In this document: positions 3,512 through 58,560 of the stretch, one piece after another
How positions within the stretch are numbered: position 1 is the stretch's first letter
Layout of the letters: each line of letters begins with the position of its first letter
Assembly: GCA_001636495.1 (NCBI GenBank)
Contig: KV440964.1
Coordinates: 2,124,666 to 2,188,665, forward strand
Length of the DNA: 64,000 nt
Source of the DNA: Sutcliffiella horikoshii
GTDB taxonomy: Bacteria; Bacillota; Bacilli; Bacillales; Bacillaceae_I
Direction of reading: 5' to 3'
Translations under genes and position numbers: made by a program
Notes under the pieces: model-generated
The model's database searches: none
Seen by the model: only the letters and a program-made list of their open reading frames with translations
What the model was told of the DNA's origin: nothing

Positions 3512-4246
3512 TTAAAAGAATTCAATTCTCTTTCCATACTTATTTATTAATTCGTTATTGTGCTCCTCAGACCCGTCAACATTTCCGCTTTTAAATATAG
3601 GAATCTCCATTCCTTTTTTAATAAGAAGTTCAACGGAATTAACAATTATTTGATTCAGGATGGTTGCATTTATGATAGTGGACCCTGGTCCTATACTATT
3701 GGTTGAATGATGATTATGTAATGTTATCAAGGCATCTCCTATAGGGATAAGGTTATCAAGAGCAATATCAGCTGCAGCCGCTAAATGTAAACCGGTAGAA
3801 TGACGAGAAGAAAGGGTGTGGTATGCATGAGATGATATAGTCACAATCCTCAGTCCCATCTTTTTCCCATACTGTGCAACATCTATTGGAACAGGATTTC
3901 TTCCAGATGTGGAGACAACCAATAATACATCATTTGGTTGGAATGGTTGTGAGGGGAGAAAGGTTTTTGCGAACAAGGGATCTTTCTCTAAATCAGAGGA
4001 ACGTAGAGCCCCCTTATGCAGCATGAGATCTTCCACAAATAAAGGTCTGATTGGGACAATTCCACCTGCTCTATAAAATACTTCTTCGGCGATCATGTGG
4101 GAGTGGCCGCATCCAAAAACATGTAGAATACCTTCATTTCCAAAGCAGTCAGCAAGGAGAGAGGATGACTGCTCTATCTCTATACTGTTTTTTTCCTCCA
4201 CTTTTGTCAGGAGCTGTTGAACAGCTGATAAATAACTCGTATCCAT
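3512..4246 (-). CDS. SIS-domain sugar-phosphate binding protein (UPF0309 type)
   Basis: A 244-residue SIS (sugar isomerase) domain protein. VFGCGHSH near residue 43 is the phosphate-binding first strand and turn, and LLVVSTSGRNPVPID near residues 107-121 is the second SIS motif. Similar proteins are annotated UPF0309 and are often found beside N-acetylglucosamine or N-acetylmuramic acid genes. It is the last gene of the nagA-nagB-nagR cluster, 15 nt after nagR, which suggests an amino-sugar phosphate ligand. Whether it is an enzyme (isomerase or etherase) or a binding protein cannot be decided here. MurQ-type etherases are longer. Confidence 0.8.
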   Translation of the reverse strand: MDTSYLSAVQQLLTKVEEKNSIEIEQSSSLLADCFGNEGILHVFGCGHSHMIAEEVFYRAGGIVPIRPLFVEDLMLHKGALRSSDLEKDPLFAKTFLPSQPFQPNDVLLVVSTSGRNPVPIDVAQYGKKMGLRIVTISSHAYHTLSSRHSTGLHLAAAADIALDNLIPIGDALITLHNHHSTNSIGPGSTIINATILNQIIVNSVELLIKKGMEIPIFKSGNVDGSEEHNNELINKYGKRIEFF

Positions 4247-18308: not shown

Positions 18309-19481
18309 ATGAAACTCATTCTTGCCATCATTGCAGCCTTGTTAATTCTACTGTTCATTCCATTCGAAGTTGTACAAGCCTCCCCCTCTTCTCCGTCAGA
18401 ACTAGTGACAGAGCAAATTGAAGGAGTCGACGTGGAGGAAATAAAGGCATACTGGGAAGAAATCATGCAGGAGTACGGCGGATTTTTGCCGGAAAGCCAA
18501 AAAGGGACCTTTATGGAATTTGTCAAAGGGGACAAGTCCTTTTCTATGAAAGAGTGGTCCAAAGGTTTCATCAAATATCTATTTCACGAACTTTTGGCAA
18601 ATGGAAAGCTTCTTGGCAGCCTTATTTTATTAACTATCTTTAGCATGTTCCTGCAAACGCTCCAAAACGCCTTTGAACAAAAGACAGTCAGTAAAGTGGC
18701 CTACAGTGTCGTTTTCATGGTCCTGATCATCATCGCACTCAACAGCTTCCACATCGTGATCTCTTATACCCAAGAAGCAATAACAGCCATGACCGGCTTC
18801 ATCATTGCACTTATACCATTGCTCATTGCCCTGATCGCATCTTCAGGTGGATTGGTCTCAGCAGCTTTCTTTCATCCTATTATTCTATTTTTAATGAACA
18901 CAAGCGGCCTGCTGATTCAATATATCGTATTACCACTATTGTTTCTATCGGCTATCCTGAGCATTGTCAGTACTCTTAGTGAACAATACAAAGTGACGCA
19001 GCTGGCACAGCTTTTACGAAACGTTAGTATCGGAATTCTCGGAATCTATTTGACGGTGTTTCTTGGAGTCATTTCCGTACAGGGGGCAACAGCAGCTGTG
19101 ACAGACGGGATAGCCATTCGGACCGCGAAATTCGTGACCGGAAACTTCATTCCGGTAATAGGAAGGATGTTCACCGATGCCACAGACACGGTCATTACAG
19201 CCTCTCTATTATTGAAAAATACGGTGGGAATCCTTGGTGTTGCCACCTTGATATTACTTGCAGCCTTTCCAGCGGTGAAAATACTATCCATTGCCATCAT
19301 CTATAAGCTCGCTGCAGCCCTACTCCAGCCATTGGGTGGCGGAACGGTCATTAAATGCCTGGACATCATCAGCAAAAGCATCATCTACATTTTTGCAGCG
19401 CTCGCGATTGTCTCATTTATGTTCTTCTTAAGCATAACGGTAATCATTGCAGCCGGTAATATCACCGTGATGGTCAGGTAA
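18309..19481 (+). CDS. spoIIIAE: Stage III sporulation protein SpoIIIAE
   Basis: 390 residues. A cleavable-type signal segment (MKLILAIIAALLILLFIPFEVVQA), an extracytoplasmic region to about residue 90, then about seven hydrophobic helices. ATG 18309 follows AGAGGGGAG; the frame also reaches ATG 18282, inside that ribosome binding site region. SpoIIIAE is the polytopic membrane subunit of the mother-cell channel, resembling transporter-like components. It starts 29 nt after spoIIIAD. Confidence 0.93.
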   Translation: MKLILAIIAALLILLFIPFEVVQASPSSPSELVTEQIEGVDVEEIKAYWEEIMQEYGGFLPESQKGTFMEFVKGDKSFSMKEWSKGFIKYLFHELLANGKLLGSLILLTIFSMFLQTLQNAFEQKTVSKVAYSVVFMVLIIIALNSFHIVISYTQEAITAMTGFIIALIPLLIALIASSGGLVSAAFFHPIILFLMNTSGLLIQYIVLPLLFLSAILSIVSTLSEQYKVTQLAQLLRNVSIGILGIYLTVFLGVISVQGATAAVTDGIAIRTAKFVTGNFIPVIGRMFTDATDTVITASLLLKNTVGILGVATLILLAAFPAVKILSIAIIYKLAAALLQPLGGGTVIKCLDIISKSIIYIFAALAIVSFMFFLSITVIIAAGNITVMVR

Positions 19482-28838: not shown

Positions 28839-29735
28839 TTGGCACAAGTGATGGATTTGCAAACCTTTATGAAGGAAAGAAAGAAACTAGTGGAAGATGC
28901 TCTTTTTTCGTATATGAATGATGTGGAAGCTCCACAAGTTTTAGTGGAATCCATGATTTATTCATTGAAAGCCGGAGGAAAGAGACTTCGTCCGCTACTG
29001 GTTTTGGCAACGTTGAACTCCTTTGGTAAGTCCGAAAAACTGGGCTTGCCAGTGGCTTGTGCTGTTGAAATGATTCATACGTATTCATTGATCCATGATG
29101 ACCTTCCAAGTATGGATGATGATGACTATAGACGAGGAAAACCAACGAATCACAAGGTGTATGGGGAAGCCATGGCTATCCTTGCAGGAGATGCGTTGCT
29201 GACATACAGCTTTGAAGTTATGGAAGACCTGTTAAACCAAGGTGTGTCACCTATTAAAGTGGTCACTTTGATGAAGGAGCTCTCCAAAGCCTCTGGGCCT
29301 ATAGGTATGGTCGGGGGACAAGTGGCGGATATGGAAGGGGAAGGAAAGGCACTAGCGCTTGAAGACTTGGAGTATATACATAGAAACAAAACAGGTAAGT
29401 TGCTTGGTTACAGCATAGTGGCAGGAGCTATCCTTGGAGATGCAACCGAGGAGCAGATTTCAAAGCTTTACGCGTTTGCCGATCACCTTGGGCTTGCTTT
29501 CCAAATCCGTGACGATATCCTTGATATTGAAGGGGACGCTGAGAAAATTGGGAAGCCTATTGGGTCTGATACGCTGAATGAAAAGGTTACCTACCCATCT
29601 TTGTTAACGATGGGTGGCGCCAAGGAAAAATTGGAATATCATATTTATGAGGCGAAACGCTTGCTTGCCGATATCCCTTTGGAATCCGACCTTTTGTCCC
29701 AACTTTGTGATCTAATTGCCAAAAGAGACCATTAA
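28839..29735 (+). CDS. ispA: Farnesyl diphosphate (polyprenyl) synthase
   Basis: 298 residues. Two aspartate-rich motifs bind Mg-diphosphate: DDLPSMDDDDYRRGKPT (first DDxxxxD, near residues 87-95) and QIRDDILDIEGD (second DDxxD, near residue 229). GGKRLRPLL is the N-terminal basic motif. It condenses IPP with DMAPP/GPP to farnesyl diphosphate. The TTG start at 28839 has AGGAGG 12 nt upstream, within xseB. Downstream lies the OLE RNA and then dxs, which supplies the same isoprenoid pathway. Confidence 0.95.
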   Translation: MAQVMDLQTFMKERKKLVEDALFSYMNDVEAPQVLVESMIYSLKAGGKRLRPLLVLATLNSFGKSEKLGLPVACAVEMIHTYSLIHDDLPSMDDDDYRRGKPTNHKVYGEAMAILAGDALLTYSFEVMEDLLNQGVSPIKVVTLMKELSKASGPIGMVGGQVADMEGEGKALALEDLEYIHRNKTGKLLGYSIVAGAILGDATEEQISKLYAFADHLGLAFQIRDDILDIEGDAEKIGKPIGSDTLNEKVTYPSLLTMGGAKEKLEYHIYEAKRLLADIPLESDLLSQLCDLIAKRDH

Positions 29736-29799
29736 TCGACAAAAACAGAGACGGAAATTGAGCATTTCCTCTTTTTGTGATATAGTATATGATACAAAT

Positions 29800-30400
29800 G
29801 GGTGGTGCAGTATTCTAGTCAGTCTACCTTTTCTGAAGGCGGGCCTAAAAATCCGCTAAAGGGCACATCGATGAAGTTCCTTGTGTCGGCTTGAGGCGCC
29901 CAGCCTTGGGTTGATGCTGGGAGTTAAGGTAGTAGGGCGATCCACAATGGCATGTGGGCGAAGACCCTACTTCCGTGGAGGCCCATTCTCATCCATGTTT
30001 ATCCCCTAGGGAAGCATGTGGTGGAATGGTGATAAACCTGCTATATGTCTGACTGGGTTGGACATATACAGCGTAGCCTGCCTTGAGTGGAGTTGGAGGG
30101 GATTATGGTATAGGATCTTTTCACTAGGCCAGTGAAACTATCTTTGTATTCCATATGAAATCTGCTCTGCAAAAGAGGCTAAGAACTGGTTAAAGGCTGT
30201 AGAGGAAAACTCCTAGACTGTTCTGATTCTAGACATGCATTGGGGATTATAGTGCGGACTAAGTGGTAATCCAGTCTAGCTGATGGCGACACAGCTAAGG
30301 CAGGTTTAATGGGAAACCGCCAGTATGGCGACATCTGGTACTTGCTTGGGAAAACCTACTGGACCTAAGCCGCAGTCTTTACCTAATGCATGACCACTCT
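29800..30400 (+). ncRNA. ole: OLE RNA (ornate, large, extremophilic)
   Basis: A non-coding, G-rich, highly structured region of about 600 nt between ispA and a membrane protein gene. OLE RNA occupies this place and has this length in Bacillus halodurans and relatives. The ends can pair as a closing stem: GGGTGGTGCAGTA at 29800-29812 with TAATGCATGACCACTC at 30384-30399. Several internal hairpins are visible, for example ATATGTC/GACATAT around 30042-30069 and the TTTTCACTAGG CCAGTGAAA arm near 30118-30130. The known OLE RNA forms a membrane-bound ribonucleoprotein with OapA and helps cells tolerate cold, short-chain alcohols and Mg2+ stress. Exact processing ends are inferred. The absence of a long frame here and the OapA gene downstream make another RNA class unlikely. 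Confidence 0.9.
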
Positions 30401-30495
30401 TACATATTAAAGTTTGGTGGATAAAAATTAAATGTCTATAATAAAATGTAGGATAACTACAAAAGCTTACTTATATAAAGTTAGGAAATTATACC

Positions 30496-31101
30496 ATGTT
30501 AAATAAATGGAAAGATGCAATAAATTGGAGTTTAGCTATCGCCGTTATCACACTCGTGTTAGCGGCTATTTTTTCAATCGTTTCCACCTATCTGCTTTCA
30601 GGTGTCACATGGGCGATAGGTATGGTCATCGTATTCATCATTGTGTTTATCGGTATTTTCTTTGATATGCTGGGTATTGCTGCAACGGCGGCAGATGAGA
30701 CGCCATTTCATGCCATGGCAGCCGAAAGGGTAAACGGTTCCAAGCAGAGCATTCAGATTGTCAGAAGTGCCGACCGCTTTGCAAGCTTTTGTAATGATGT
30801 AATAGGGGATATATCTGGAATCATCAGTGGAACGGCCTCGGCAATTGTGGTGATTTCGTTTACCATTTCCATGGGCCAAAGGGAAGATTCCTTATTTCAT
30901 TATATTGTTGCAGTGGTTTTTACAAGCGTCGTGGCTGCTGTGACAGTGGGAGGAAAAGCTTTCGGGAAATCAATGGCCATCCGCTATTCGACACCGATTC
31001 TTTTTCAAGTGGGCAAGCTGTTTTACATCTTAGAAGACAAGTTTAAAATCGTGGTTATGAAAGAAAACAAAAATAAACGTAAAAATAAGCGAAATCAGTA
31101 A
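30496..31101 (+). CDS. oapA: OLE-associated membrane protein OapA
   Basis: 201 residues. Four hydrophobic helices (residues ~12-33, 36-56, ~103-128 and ~133-155) flank a central polar loop (MLGIAATAADETPFHAMAAERVNGSKQSIQIVRSADRFASFCNDVIGDISG). A strongly basic tail (KIVVMKENKNKRKNKRNQ) suits RNA contact. In B. halodurans OapA is the protein partner that anchors OLE RNA at the membrane; its fold is related to the DUF21/CNNM magnesium-transport domain. Its position directly after OLE and before dxs is the conserved arrangement. It may be made from the same long transcript as ispA and OLE. Confidence 0.9.
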   Translation: MLNKWKDAINWSLAIAVITLVLAAIFSIVSTYLLSGVTWAIGMVIVFIIVFIGIFFDMLGIAATAADETPFHAMAAERVNGSKQSIQIVRSADRFASFCNDVIGDISGIISGTASAIVVISFTISMGQREDSLFHYIVAVVFTSVVAAVTVGGKAFGKSMAIRYSTPILFQVGKLFYILEDKFKIVVMKENKNKRKNKRNQ

Positions 31102-31120
31102 GGAAAGAGAGTGATCCCTT

Positions 31121-33013
31121 TTGGATCTTACAAAGATTGAAAACCCGCAGTTTTTAAAGAAAATGTCTATAGCTGAATTGGAGAGTTTGAGTGAAGATGT
31201 CAGGCGCTTTCTTATTGAGCAGCTGTCCACTTCAGGGGGACATATCGGACCAAACCTTGGTGTGGTGGAGCTTACGATAGCACTGCACAAGGTATTTGAC
31301 AGCCCGAAAGATAAGTTTCTATGGGATGTTGGCCATCAGGCTTATGTTCATAAGATCTTAACAGGAAGAGCCTGTGAATTTGGCACCTTAAGAAAATACA
31401 AAGGGCTATGTGGATTTCCGAAAAGGAATGAAAGCGAGCATGATGTCTGGGAGACGGGACACTCCTCGACCTCTCTTTCCGGTGCTATGGGAATGGCGGC
31501 TGCCAGAGACATTAAAGGAACGGACGAATATGTCATTCCGATCATCGGGGATGGAGCATTGACTGGTGGTATGGCCTTGGAAGCTCTAAATCATATCGGC
31601 CACGAAAAGAAGGACATGATTGTCATTTTGAATGATAATGAAATGTCCATCGCTCCGAATGTTGGTGCCCTGCACAGTGCCCTTGGAAGAATGCGTACTG
31701 CAGGTAAATACAATTGGGTCAAAGACGAACTGGAAGTGCTTCTCAAGAAAATACCTGCAGTTGGCGGGAAACTGGCGTCAACGGCTGAGCGCATCAAAGA
31801 CAGTTTGAAGTACCTAGTTGTCAGTGGCATGTTCTTTGAAGAAATGGGCTTTACGTACTTAGGTCCAATTGATGGACATAATTATAATGATTTAATTGAT
31901 AACCTAAACTATGCGAAAAAAACCGAAGGCCCTGTCCTTATCCATGTGGTCACCAAAAAAGGAAAAGGATATGAGCCTGCAGAACTTGATACGATTGGTA
32001 CATGGCATGGAACTGGACCGTATAAAATCGAAACAGGTGATTTCCTCAAGCCAGTTGGTGCACCACCAGCTTGGAGCAGTGTCGTCAGTGAAACAGTTAG
32101 GAAGCTTGCACGTGAAGATGAACGTATCGTTGCCCTGACACCAGCGATGCCTGTGGGGTCCAAGCTCGAGAATTTTGCCAAGGAATTCCCAGAAAGAATG
32201 TTTGATGTTGGAATCGCGGAGCAGCATGCTGTTACGATGGCTGCCGGCTTGGCGACGCAAGGGATGAAGCCGTTTTTGGCCATCTATTCTACTTTCTTGC
32301 AAAGAGGGTACGATCAGGTGGTTCACGATGTTTGCCGTCAAAATCTGAACGTCTTCTTCGGAATCGACCGTTCCGGTTTGGTTGGAGAGGACGGAGAGAC
32401 GCATCAGGGTGTATTTGATATTGCATTCCTTCGCCACCTTCCAAACATGGTCCTGATGATGCCGAAAGATGAAAATGAAGGCCAGCACATGGTATACACG
32501 GCAAACAAATATGACGCAGGTCCAATTGCTCTACGTTACCCACGCGGTAACGGATTGGGAGTGAAAATGGATGAAGAGCTAAAAGAACTTCCGATCGGAT
32601 CTTGGGAAGTGCTTAGAGAAGGAATGGATGCGGTTATCCTGACCTTCGGAACGACCATTGGAATGGCGCTTGAAGCGGCTGACTACTTGAAGAAAGAAAA
32701 TCTTTCTGTAAAAGTGGTCAATGCTCGATTCATTAAACCGATGGATGAAGCATTGCTGCACGACCTCTTCAAATCAGGCATTCCATTTGTAACGATAGAG
32801 GAAGCTGTCCTTCAAGGTGGATTTGGTAGTGCGGTCGCGGAATTTGCAAGCGATAATGGGTACACGAACCGAGTAATTAGAATGGGAATTCCAGATCGTT
32901 TCATTGAACATGGAAGCGTGAAGGAGCTGCTACAGGAAATAGATTTAACGAAAGAAAAAGTAGTGGAAAATGTTAAATTGATTGCAGCAAGAAGAAAACA
33001 AAAAAGGGCTTAA
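31121..33013 (+). CDS. dxs: 1-deoxy-D-xylulose-5-phosphate synthase
   Basis: A 630-residue thiamine diphosphate enzyme making DXP from pyruvate and glyceraldehyde-3-phosphate, the first step of the MEP isoprenoid pathway. [50 protein letters not shown] (GDG...N ThDP motif), and the transketolase-like half with [16 protein letters not shown] and [19 protein letters not shown] are all present. The start is TTG 31121 with GGAAAGAGAG upstream. It forms an isoprenoid cluster with ispA on the other side of OLE/oapA. Confidence 0.96.
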
Positions 33014-58382: not shown

Positions 58383-58396
58383 AGGGCACAAAAAAA

Positions 58397-58425
58397 GGAA
58401 AGTGAGCATATCACTTTCCTTCATC
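58397..58425. terminator. Hairpin after meaB
   Basis: GGAAAGTGA (58397-58405) pairs perfectly with TCACTTTCC (58411-58419). The T tail is short on the plus strand and better on the minus strand. Confidence 0.7.
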
Positions 58426-58560
58426 TAGGGAGTATAGGGGTATGGATATCTAGATGTTACAGTTATAATACCCGCTATAATAGAAAATAAACCTTTTTTG
58501 TTTTTTTATTTGAAAATAATTGGTATGATAAGAGTAGTTTAAAACTTGAGGTGATACAAC

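Follow-up and report, generated by a model that had tools for sequence, protein, structure and literature searches.

A conserved hairpin and U-tract inside oapA, between OLE RNA and dxs in Sutcliffiella horikoshii, as a candidate attenuator

The window analyzed here, a stretch of 64,000 nucleotides of Sutcliffiella horikoshii (assembly GCA_001636495.1, contig KV440964.1, positions 2,124,666 to 2,188,665 of the forward strand), contains an OLE RNA followed by oapA, the gene coding for OLE-associated membrane protein A. The upstream neighbour is ispA (farnesyl diphosphate synthase; 28839..29735, + strand; NF045485, 431.5 bits) and the downstream neighbour is dxs (31121..33013, + strand; TIGR00204, 985.7 bits), with xseB further upstream and tlyA further downstream according to profile matches; from their translations, we take the genes beyond these to be xseA on the upstream side and argR and recN on the downstream side. 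An initial annotation, made from the letters of the sequence, had placed an OLE RNA between ispA and dxs and named the Rfam OLE model as a check, and both the flanking genes and the RNA are as it proposed: the Rfam covariance scan gave a full-length match to RF01071 at 29786..30413 (+ strand; model positions 1-616 of 616; 534.7 bits, E 5.2e-154; gathering score 50). This match is the single one in the source genome, and none of 14 control genomes has any. The first model positions overlap the -10 box of a putative OLE promoter, and position 29800, from which the RNA had earlier been drawn, holds the G that opens the closing stem. The description of the region as G-rich holds only in a mild form, G amounting to 0.271 in OLE versus 0.224 on the + strand of the window. 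OLE RNA and OapA are already known, and the S. horikoshii locus is an ordinary member of the known OLE class. Among 66 named OapA loci, found via OapA peptides that do not overlap the hairpin codons described below, an adjoining OLE reaches the gathering score in 65, the exception being a locus (L066) with almost no sequence upstream of oapA.

The two ends of the RNA had been proposed to pair as a closing stem, and a lack of compensatory pairing among relatives had been named as grounds for rejecting the annotation. For the closing stem, formed by GGGUGGU (29800-29806) with ACCACUC (30393-30399) and thus spanning 29800..30399 on the + strand, such pairing is present, although this stem is absent from the Rfam structure line. 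Over the 59 of 66 loci that were usable (seven were dropped as the anchors failed), 92.6% of the cells are paired versus 82.3% (sd 1.6) in shuffled data, with 0/500 shuffles as high; there are 27 distinct end pairs, with G-C to A-U swaps at pairs 3 and 4, and two of the eight pairs (6 and 7) are invariant. The other OLE stems are those of the Rfam model. A GGCC kissing-loop tetranucleotide (L9.3) is described for the OLE RNA dimer (PMC12286853); a hairpin loop with CUAGGCCAG is present in the RF01071 alignment of the S. horikoshii OLE, and its identification with L9.3 is our own assignment.

Two further RNA families were observed in passing. Bacillaceae-1 RNA (RF01690, 39.4 bits) is located just upstream of OLE in Oceanobacillus salinisoli (L040, 2141-2241). 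In the window, the Listeria small RNA sbrA, which is SigB-dependent, has an Rfam match at 58390-58459 (- strand, 57.1 bits), between genes that we take to be meaB-like and BrxA-like, and upstream of it on the same strand, at 58492-58468, there is a GTTTA-N14-GGGTAT arrangement, which by its motif we presume to be a SigB promoter.

The oapA gene (30496..31101, + strand) codes for 201 amino acid residues. We identified four hydrophobic segments (at about 13-31, 41-59, 102-124 and 133-151), nine lysine or arginine residues among the 25 C-terminal ones, and a DxxxD motif (DVIGD, 101-105), in agreement with the four-helix membrane protein with a basic tail that had been recognized as OapA. Among named OapA proteins, the closest comes from Sutcliffiella horikoshii biET1 (99%). 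The only Pfam match is to CNNM, at 20.4 bits and thus below the cut-off of 28.4, and no NCBIfam match was obtained. Homologues of the other two partner proteins are also encoded in the genome, on the - strand of L149: OapB at 1593-1907 (PDB 7k9b, E 2.9e-34), presumably between map and infA, and OapC (YbxF) at 18883-19146 (PDB 4lck, E 2.8e-28), presumably next to rpsL. Residues D100 and D104 are concerned in the PM1 allele of Halalkalibacterium halodurans OapA, according to the part of PMC9723947 covered here.

In the source genome, three open frames of 426-446 amino acid residues match CNNM above the cut-off. An MpfA anticorrelation within the genus was also considered and proved of no use; CNNM proteins are present in all 16 genomes. 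The four best CNNM matches of the genus (L121/G002, L122/G009, L123/G001 and L124/G015) are all in genomes without OLE, one of which (G001) is 80% complete, and these proteins could include an MpfA-like replacement. A separate observation concerns the ribosome site of dxs (approximately GAAAGNGAGUGAUC, window 31101-31120), which is long, appears by eye to be alike in most of the dxs leaders examined and, in our understanding, resembles an extended complement of the 16S rRNA 3' end.

Directly before OLE there is a putative promoter of the sigma-A type (29758..29786, + strand), identified by a consensus scan and composed of a -35 box TTGAGC (29758-29763), a 17-nt spacer and a -10 box TATAGT (29781-29786), the start site being predicted. 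The promoter scan of the OLE region was overall near chance (6 found versus 5.2 expected); a match directly before OLE is nevertheless present in 62 of 66 OLE loci (0.94; shuffled 0.20). The OLE promoter is also kept, as judged by eye, in all five OLE-less congeners with a readable ispA-dxs interval, where it is now located upstream of dxs, and the proposed link of OLE to the isoprenoid genes thereby gains support. In H. halodurans, OLE is part of a large operon, has its own promoter too, is presumably processed and is seen at about 630 nt; the passage describing this names no terminator (PMC9723947). The single long transcript from which OLE is processed, as initially suggested for S. horikoshii, is probably only part of the picture, given the promoter before OLE and a terminator-like hairpin on its 3' side. 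The latter is located in oapA. A promoter-to-hairpin unit of about 780 nt could thus be transcribed and then trimmed to OLE, with oapA and dxs expressed through read-through.

This hairpin begins 128 nt past the end of the OLE model (61-135 nt in 50 named loci), with the start codon of oapA 45 nt upstream. It follows the 26-nt pattern GCCGUUA.CAC-NNNN-GUG.UAGCGGC (30541..30566, + strand; oapA codons 16-24), folding in the window as GCCGUUA-U-CAC, a loop of 4 and GUG-U-UAGCGGC, and is followed by the U-tract UAUUUUUUC (30567..30575, + strand; codons 24-27), so that the whole element occupies 30541-30575, with hairpin and U-tract in the direction of transcription. The fold has -14.3 kcal/mol (z -4.8 versus shuffles). 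Random synonymous recoding of the stretch gives a fold as good or better in 829 of 20000 trials and the exact motif in 3 of 20000. A U.U mismatch interrupts the stem, as A or C residues do the U-tract; a general terminator scan did not list the in-gene hairpin and found no excess (2 versus 1.8 expected). As to the identity of the element, a dispersed repeat was rejected, the exact hairpin having one copy in the source genome, and so was a known Rfam family: Rfam 15 has no family at the hairpin in the window and no family at all in 20 OLE-less loci, the rescan covering these 20 and leaving out five loci before dxs (L193, L203-L206).

The hairpin is under selection beyond its protein code. It is exact in 50 of the 66 named OapA loci, namely in all 50 from Bacilli and in none of the other 16 (Clostridia or unplaced Bacillota, by record title), and a hairpin covariance model gives the same division. 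Codons 16, 17, 18, 21, 23 and 26 of oapA are each a single codon in all 50 named Bacilli rows; codons 25 and 27 are so in every row that has the residue in question (48 and 47 rows), which leaves the U-tract with one codon each at positions 25-27. In contrast, none of 79 other degenerate oapA codons with more than 90% amino acid conservation is codon-invariant (mean same-codon 0.43). Among degenerate sites in these 50 loci, the paired positions are invariant and those in the loop, such as the third position of codon 19, and just past the stem vary. These synonymous counts refer to the named set, unselected for the hairpin, and leave out 29 loci picked by motif (L157-L186 without L184). In distant relatives the loop ranges from 3 to 6 nt (G079, G054), and both sides have changed at 3 of 10 stem pairs, in one sequence each (0/500 shuffles). 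The T-run after the stem has a mean of 6.7 of 9, not matched by the A-run before the stem (2.9 of 9), and at least five T in the 9 nt after the hairpin are present in all 31 OLE-less loci. The covariance model was built from 38 examples and also recognizes G317 and G357, OLE loci missed by the strict pattern; alignment A1 combines the window with 25 of the 31 hairpins from OLE-less loci and 12 of the 50 from named OLE-bearing ones, without five near-duplicates and the doubtful G063, and a few of its diverged rows were imperfectly placed by MAFFT.

We found the element, with up to two mismatches, in 271 of 397 genomes of the order and in 98 of 135 genera, usually once, with no match to a reversed-pattern control. 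OLE is present in 225 of the same genomes, under stricter filters that lose weak matches. OLE and element coexist in 214 genomes, OLE alone is present in 11, the element alone in 57 and neither in 115, so that the element accompanies 214 of 225 OLE-bearing and 57 of 172 OLE-less genomes. Of 398 genomes drawn across the class, 360 lie outside the order; 5 of these 360, from two families, have the element (one chance match, G710, to the reversed pattern in all 398). In four of the five the element is located within oapA, downstream of OLE; the fifth (G435) has the hairpin ahead of dxs, with no OLE found and oapA lost.

Within the genus, OLE is present in 10 of 16 genomes and was not found in six, one of them 80% complete; OapA is present in the same 10, with an additional 27-residue shred in G002. 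In four of the five readable OLE-less congeners, 40-45 nt from the start of oapA are kept nearly unchanged in surroundings that have drifted, the relic oapA frame being broken or without a start; in the fifth, G011, promoter and dxs are kept and the hairpin is absent. G005 is a partial exception among the four, since its relic frame is open across the hairpin stretch into dxs. It may be added that this frame (L151) runs from an ATG straight into dxs, and a membrane helix fused to Dxs is possible there.

Across the order, 29 of the 57 genomes with the element only were examined (the four congeners, 20 loci hand-chosen for spread rather than at random, and five further loci), and in 27 of them the hairpin is upstream of dxs without an intact oapA, one of these (G208) beginning at a contig end. 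As to the other two, the hairpin of G184, with two mismatches, is located elsewhere and probably is a chance match, and that of G218 is in oapA at a contig end, where the OLE status is unreadable. Since the 27 loci fall in nine families, a loss of OLE and oapA that spared the hairpin probably occurred on several occasions. The stem stays within its pattern among genomes whose dxs fourfold sites are 28-49% identical (11 pairs of element-only genomes or the window; pairs with G270, apparently out of register at a nucleotide identity of 0.51-0.52, were left out). Of 30 OLE-less loci, 27 have a promoter match between ispA and the hairpin (shuffled 0.30). The -10 box of G098 precedes the hairpin by 2 nt, and G063 has no fitting promoter upstream of the hairpin. 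A conserved leader peptide in OLE-less loci was considered and rejected, as the oapA frame lacks a start codon upstream of the hairpin in 18 of 31.

The sampling also extended to genomes that lack the strict element. Thirty of them gave 29 dxs loci (G160 had no dxs match), 19 of which are OLE-less, from 20 OLE-less genomes hand-chosen for spread and not random. These 19 comprise eight with a diverged hairpin (that of G063 doubtful), three with another hairpin and eight in which none was found. In an OLE-less locus, L237 (G053; 3762-3863, counted on the reverse strand), a 34-residue stretch between ispA and dxs resembles oapA at 50% identity and may be a remnant in decay. Ten of the 11 OLE-bearing genomes without the strict element were looked at (all except G382): two have a diverged hairpin, recognized by the covariance model (G317 and G357), five another terminator and three neither. 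In one of the two with a diverged hairpin, L236 (G317; 1759-2530), a re-paired hairpin and eight T separate OLE from dxs, and the interval contains no oapA. An unrelated terminator is thus present in the spacer between OLE and oapA in five of eight loci without the in-gene hairpin, from three genera, versus 0 of 50 with it (shuffled 2 and 1 of 200); G302, which has neither, shares its genus with one of the terminator-bearing loci.

The hairpin, then, is found upstream of dxs without an intact oapA, is kept as a single copy, and some OLE loci that lack it have unrelated terminators. We hypothesize, and consider probable, that the OLE transcription unit ends at a conserved attenuator inside oapA that gates oapA and dxs, with termination at the hairpin and partial or regulated read-through. 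RNA polymerase would start at the promoter just before OLE, transcribe OLE and the oapA leader and reach the hairpin and U-tract in codons 16-27. There a fraction of the transcripts would stop, giving an OLE precursor of about 780 nt that is trimmed later, and the remaining ones would continue into oapA and dxs, so that the same stretch would both encode the first membrane helix of OapA and set the amounts of oapA and dxs relative to OLE. In species with OLE, a ribosome entering oapA 45 nt upstream may open the hairpin and couple the output of OapA and Dxs to translation; under poor oapA translation, polymerase would stop at the hairpin and OLE alone would be made. After the loss of OLE and oapA, promoter and hairpin often remain and may gate dxs alone. 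The five-fold rise of OLE in ethanol described in the accessible passages of PMC9723947 would fit this attenuator model. Coupling through the leader frame is not general, since 18 of the 31 OLE-less loci have no start codon; in the OLE-less species, which have no common leader frame, the stem may have another reader, or the terminator may simply be partial. Counting against the attenuator are the general terminator scan that missed the hairpin, the synonymous recodings that fold equally well, the 16 of 31 OLE-less loci with a promoter match after the hairpin, G011, without the hairpin, G098 and G063, which misfit a promoter-to-hairpin unit, and the 115 of 172 OLE-less genomes in which the strict element is missing.

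Other explanations have to be weighed against the attenuator. The hairpin could be a plain boundary terminator that closes xseA-xseB-ispA (and ole where present), dxs having its own downstream promoter and no regulation being involved. We regard this as rather unlikely, even though a 9/12 promoter match lies between hairpin and dxs in 16 of 31 OLE-less loci, a TATAAT is present there in G071 and G335, and G098 and G063 fit better than under an attenuator; the promoter rate is little above background (0.52 versus 0.34 shuffled), and neither the kept sequence nor the position inside a gene would be needed. Moreover, G005, G009 and G310 have no promoter match in the 58-86 nt between hairpin and dxs, so that read-through seems to be needed for dxs in these genomes. 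The stem sequence is more frozen than terminator function needs, and since terminators can work with other sequences, the stem may have a further reader. A sequence-specific trans-acting factor, antiterminator or stabilizer, for which the stem would be the RNA site, would explain this and is compatible with the attenuator reading; we hold it as a tentative possibility of some weight, because the stem is identical across families even where it no longer codes for OapA, at dxs fourfold identities of 28-49%. Distant families alter the stem by compensation, which counts against such a factor.

Binding of the palindrome as double-stranded DNA by a dimeric transcription factor would account for arms that are near-perfect inverted repeats around a variable 4-nt centre in the genomes listed. 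We consider this very unlikely, since the half-site spacing would change with loops of 3 to 6 nt (G079, G054), only one side carries a T-run and the source genome has one exact copy. A processing or stability hairpin on the 3' side of the OLE precursor, rather than a terminator, is suggested by the distance of 61-135 nt from the end of the OLE model in the 50 named loci; it is unlikely too, because the hairpin is kept where OLE is gone, the U-tract is kept as well, and other terminators precede oapA in five of eight loci without the in-gene hairpin. That the element is a by-product of conserved membrane-helix codons of OapA, whose amino acids are indeed conserved in OLE-bearing Bacilli, has next to no probability left: the synonymous sites of the stem are frozen and those of the loop are not, and the element survives a broken frame or a missing start codon. 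In our view, protein constraint alone is already refuted by the OLE-less loci, as the frames are broken in congeners.

Going further than the attenuator itself, OLE in Bacilli might be a giant leader RNA between the dxs promoter and a dxs attenuator, in which OLE folding and OapA loading would decide on the passage of polymerase and ribosome; the ribonucleoprotein would thereby measure its own assembly and set dxs, and after OLE loss a bare promoter-hairpin module would run under the same trans-acting reader of the stem. We offer this as a speculation that is more probably wrong than right by a wide measure. The attenuator in oapA would itself offer an answer to how the 3' end of OLE is formed and why OLE is sited beside isoprenoid genes, and would constitute a testable control of ratio, with much OLE and little OapA and Dxs. 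If the hairpin controls dxs, this control is abolished by an oapA deletion, and altered dxs expression could account for some knock-out phenotypes. A 26-nt element present in most sampled genomes of the order, inside and outside a coding frame, is also a striking case of dual coding. The novelty is the hairpin and U-tract in oapA, not the OLE locus itself. Our search of the open full-text literature yielded no account of a terminator inside oapA or ahead of dxs; key older OLE papers lie outside that scope, and thus the hairpin may already be in print.

Among known systems, the OLE/OapA locus of H. halodurans is the closest, sharing with that of S. horikoshii the full-length covariance match, the adjoining oapA, the isoprenoid genes, the preceding promoter and homologues of OapB and OapC; we found no structural difference, and the in-gene hairpin is unmentioned in the literature passages covered. 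MpfA/CNNM magnesium transporters resemble OapA through its sub-threshold CNNM match, and differ in that OapA has 201 amino acid residues, whereas CBS and CorC parts are described for MpfA in the part of PMC12265935 covered. With the intrinsic terminators and attenuators of Bacillota, the element shares the stem, the U-tract, the orientation and the place between promoter and gene; unlike these, it has a stem that is frozen across families, usually occurs in one copy, also encodes part of a membrane protein and outlasts the loss of the gene for that protein.
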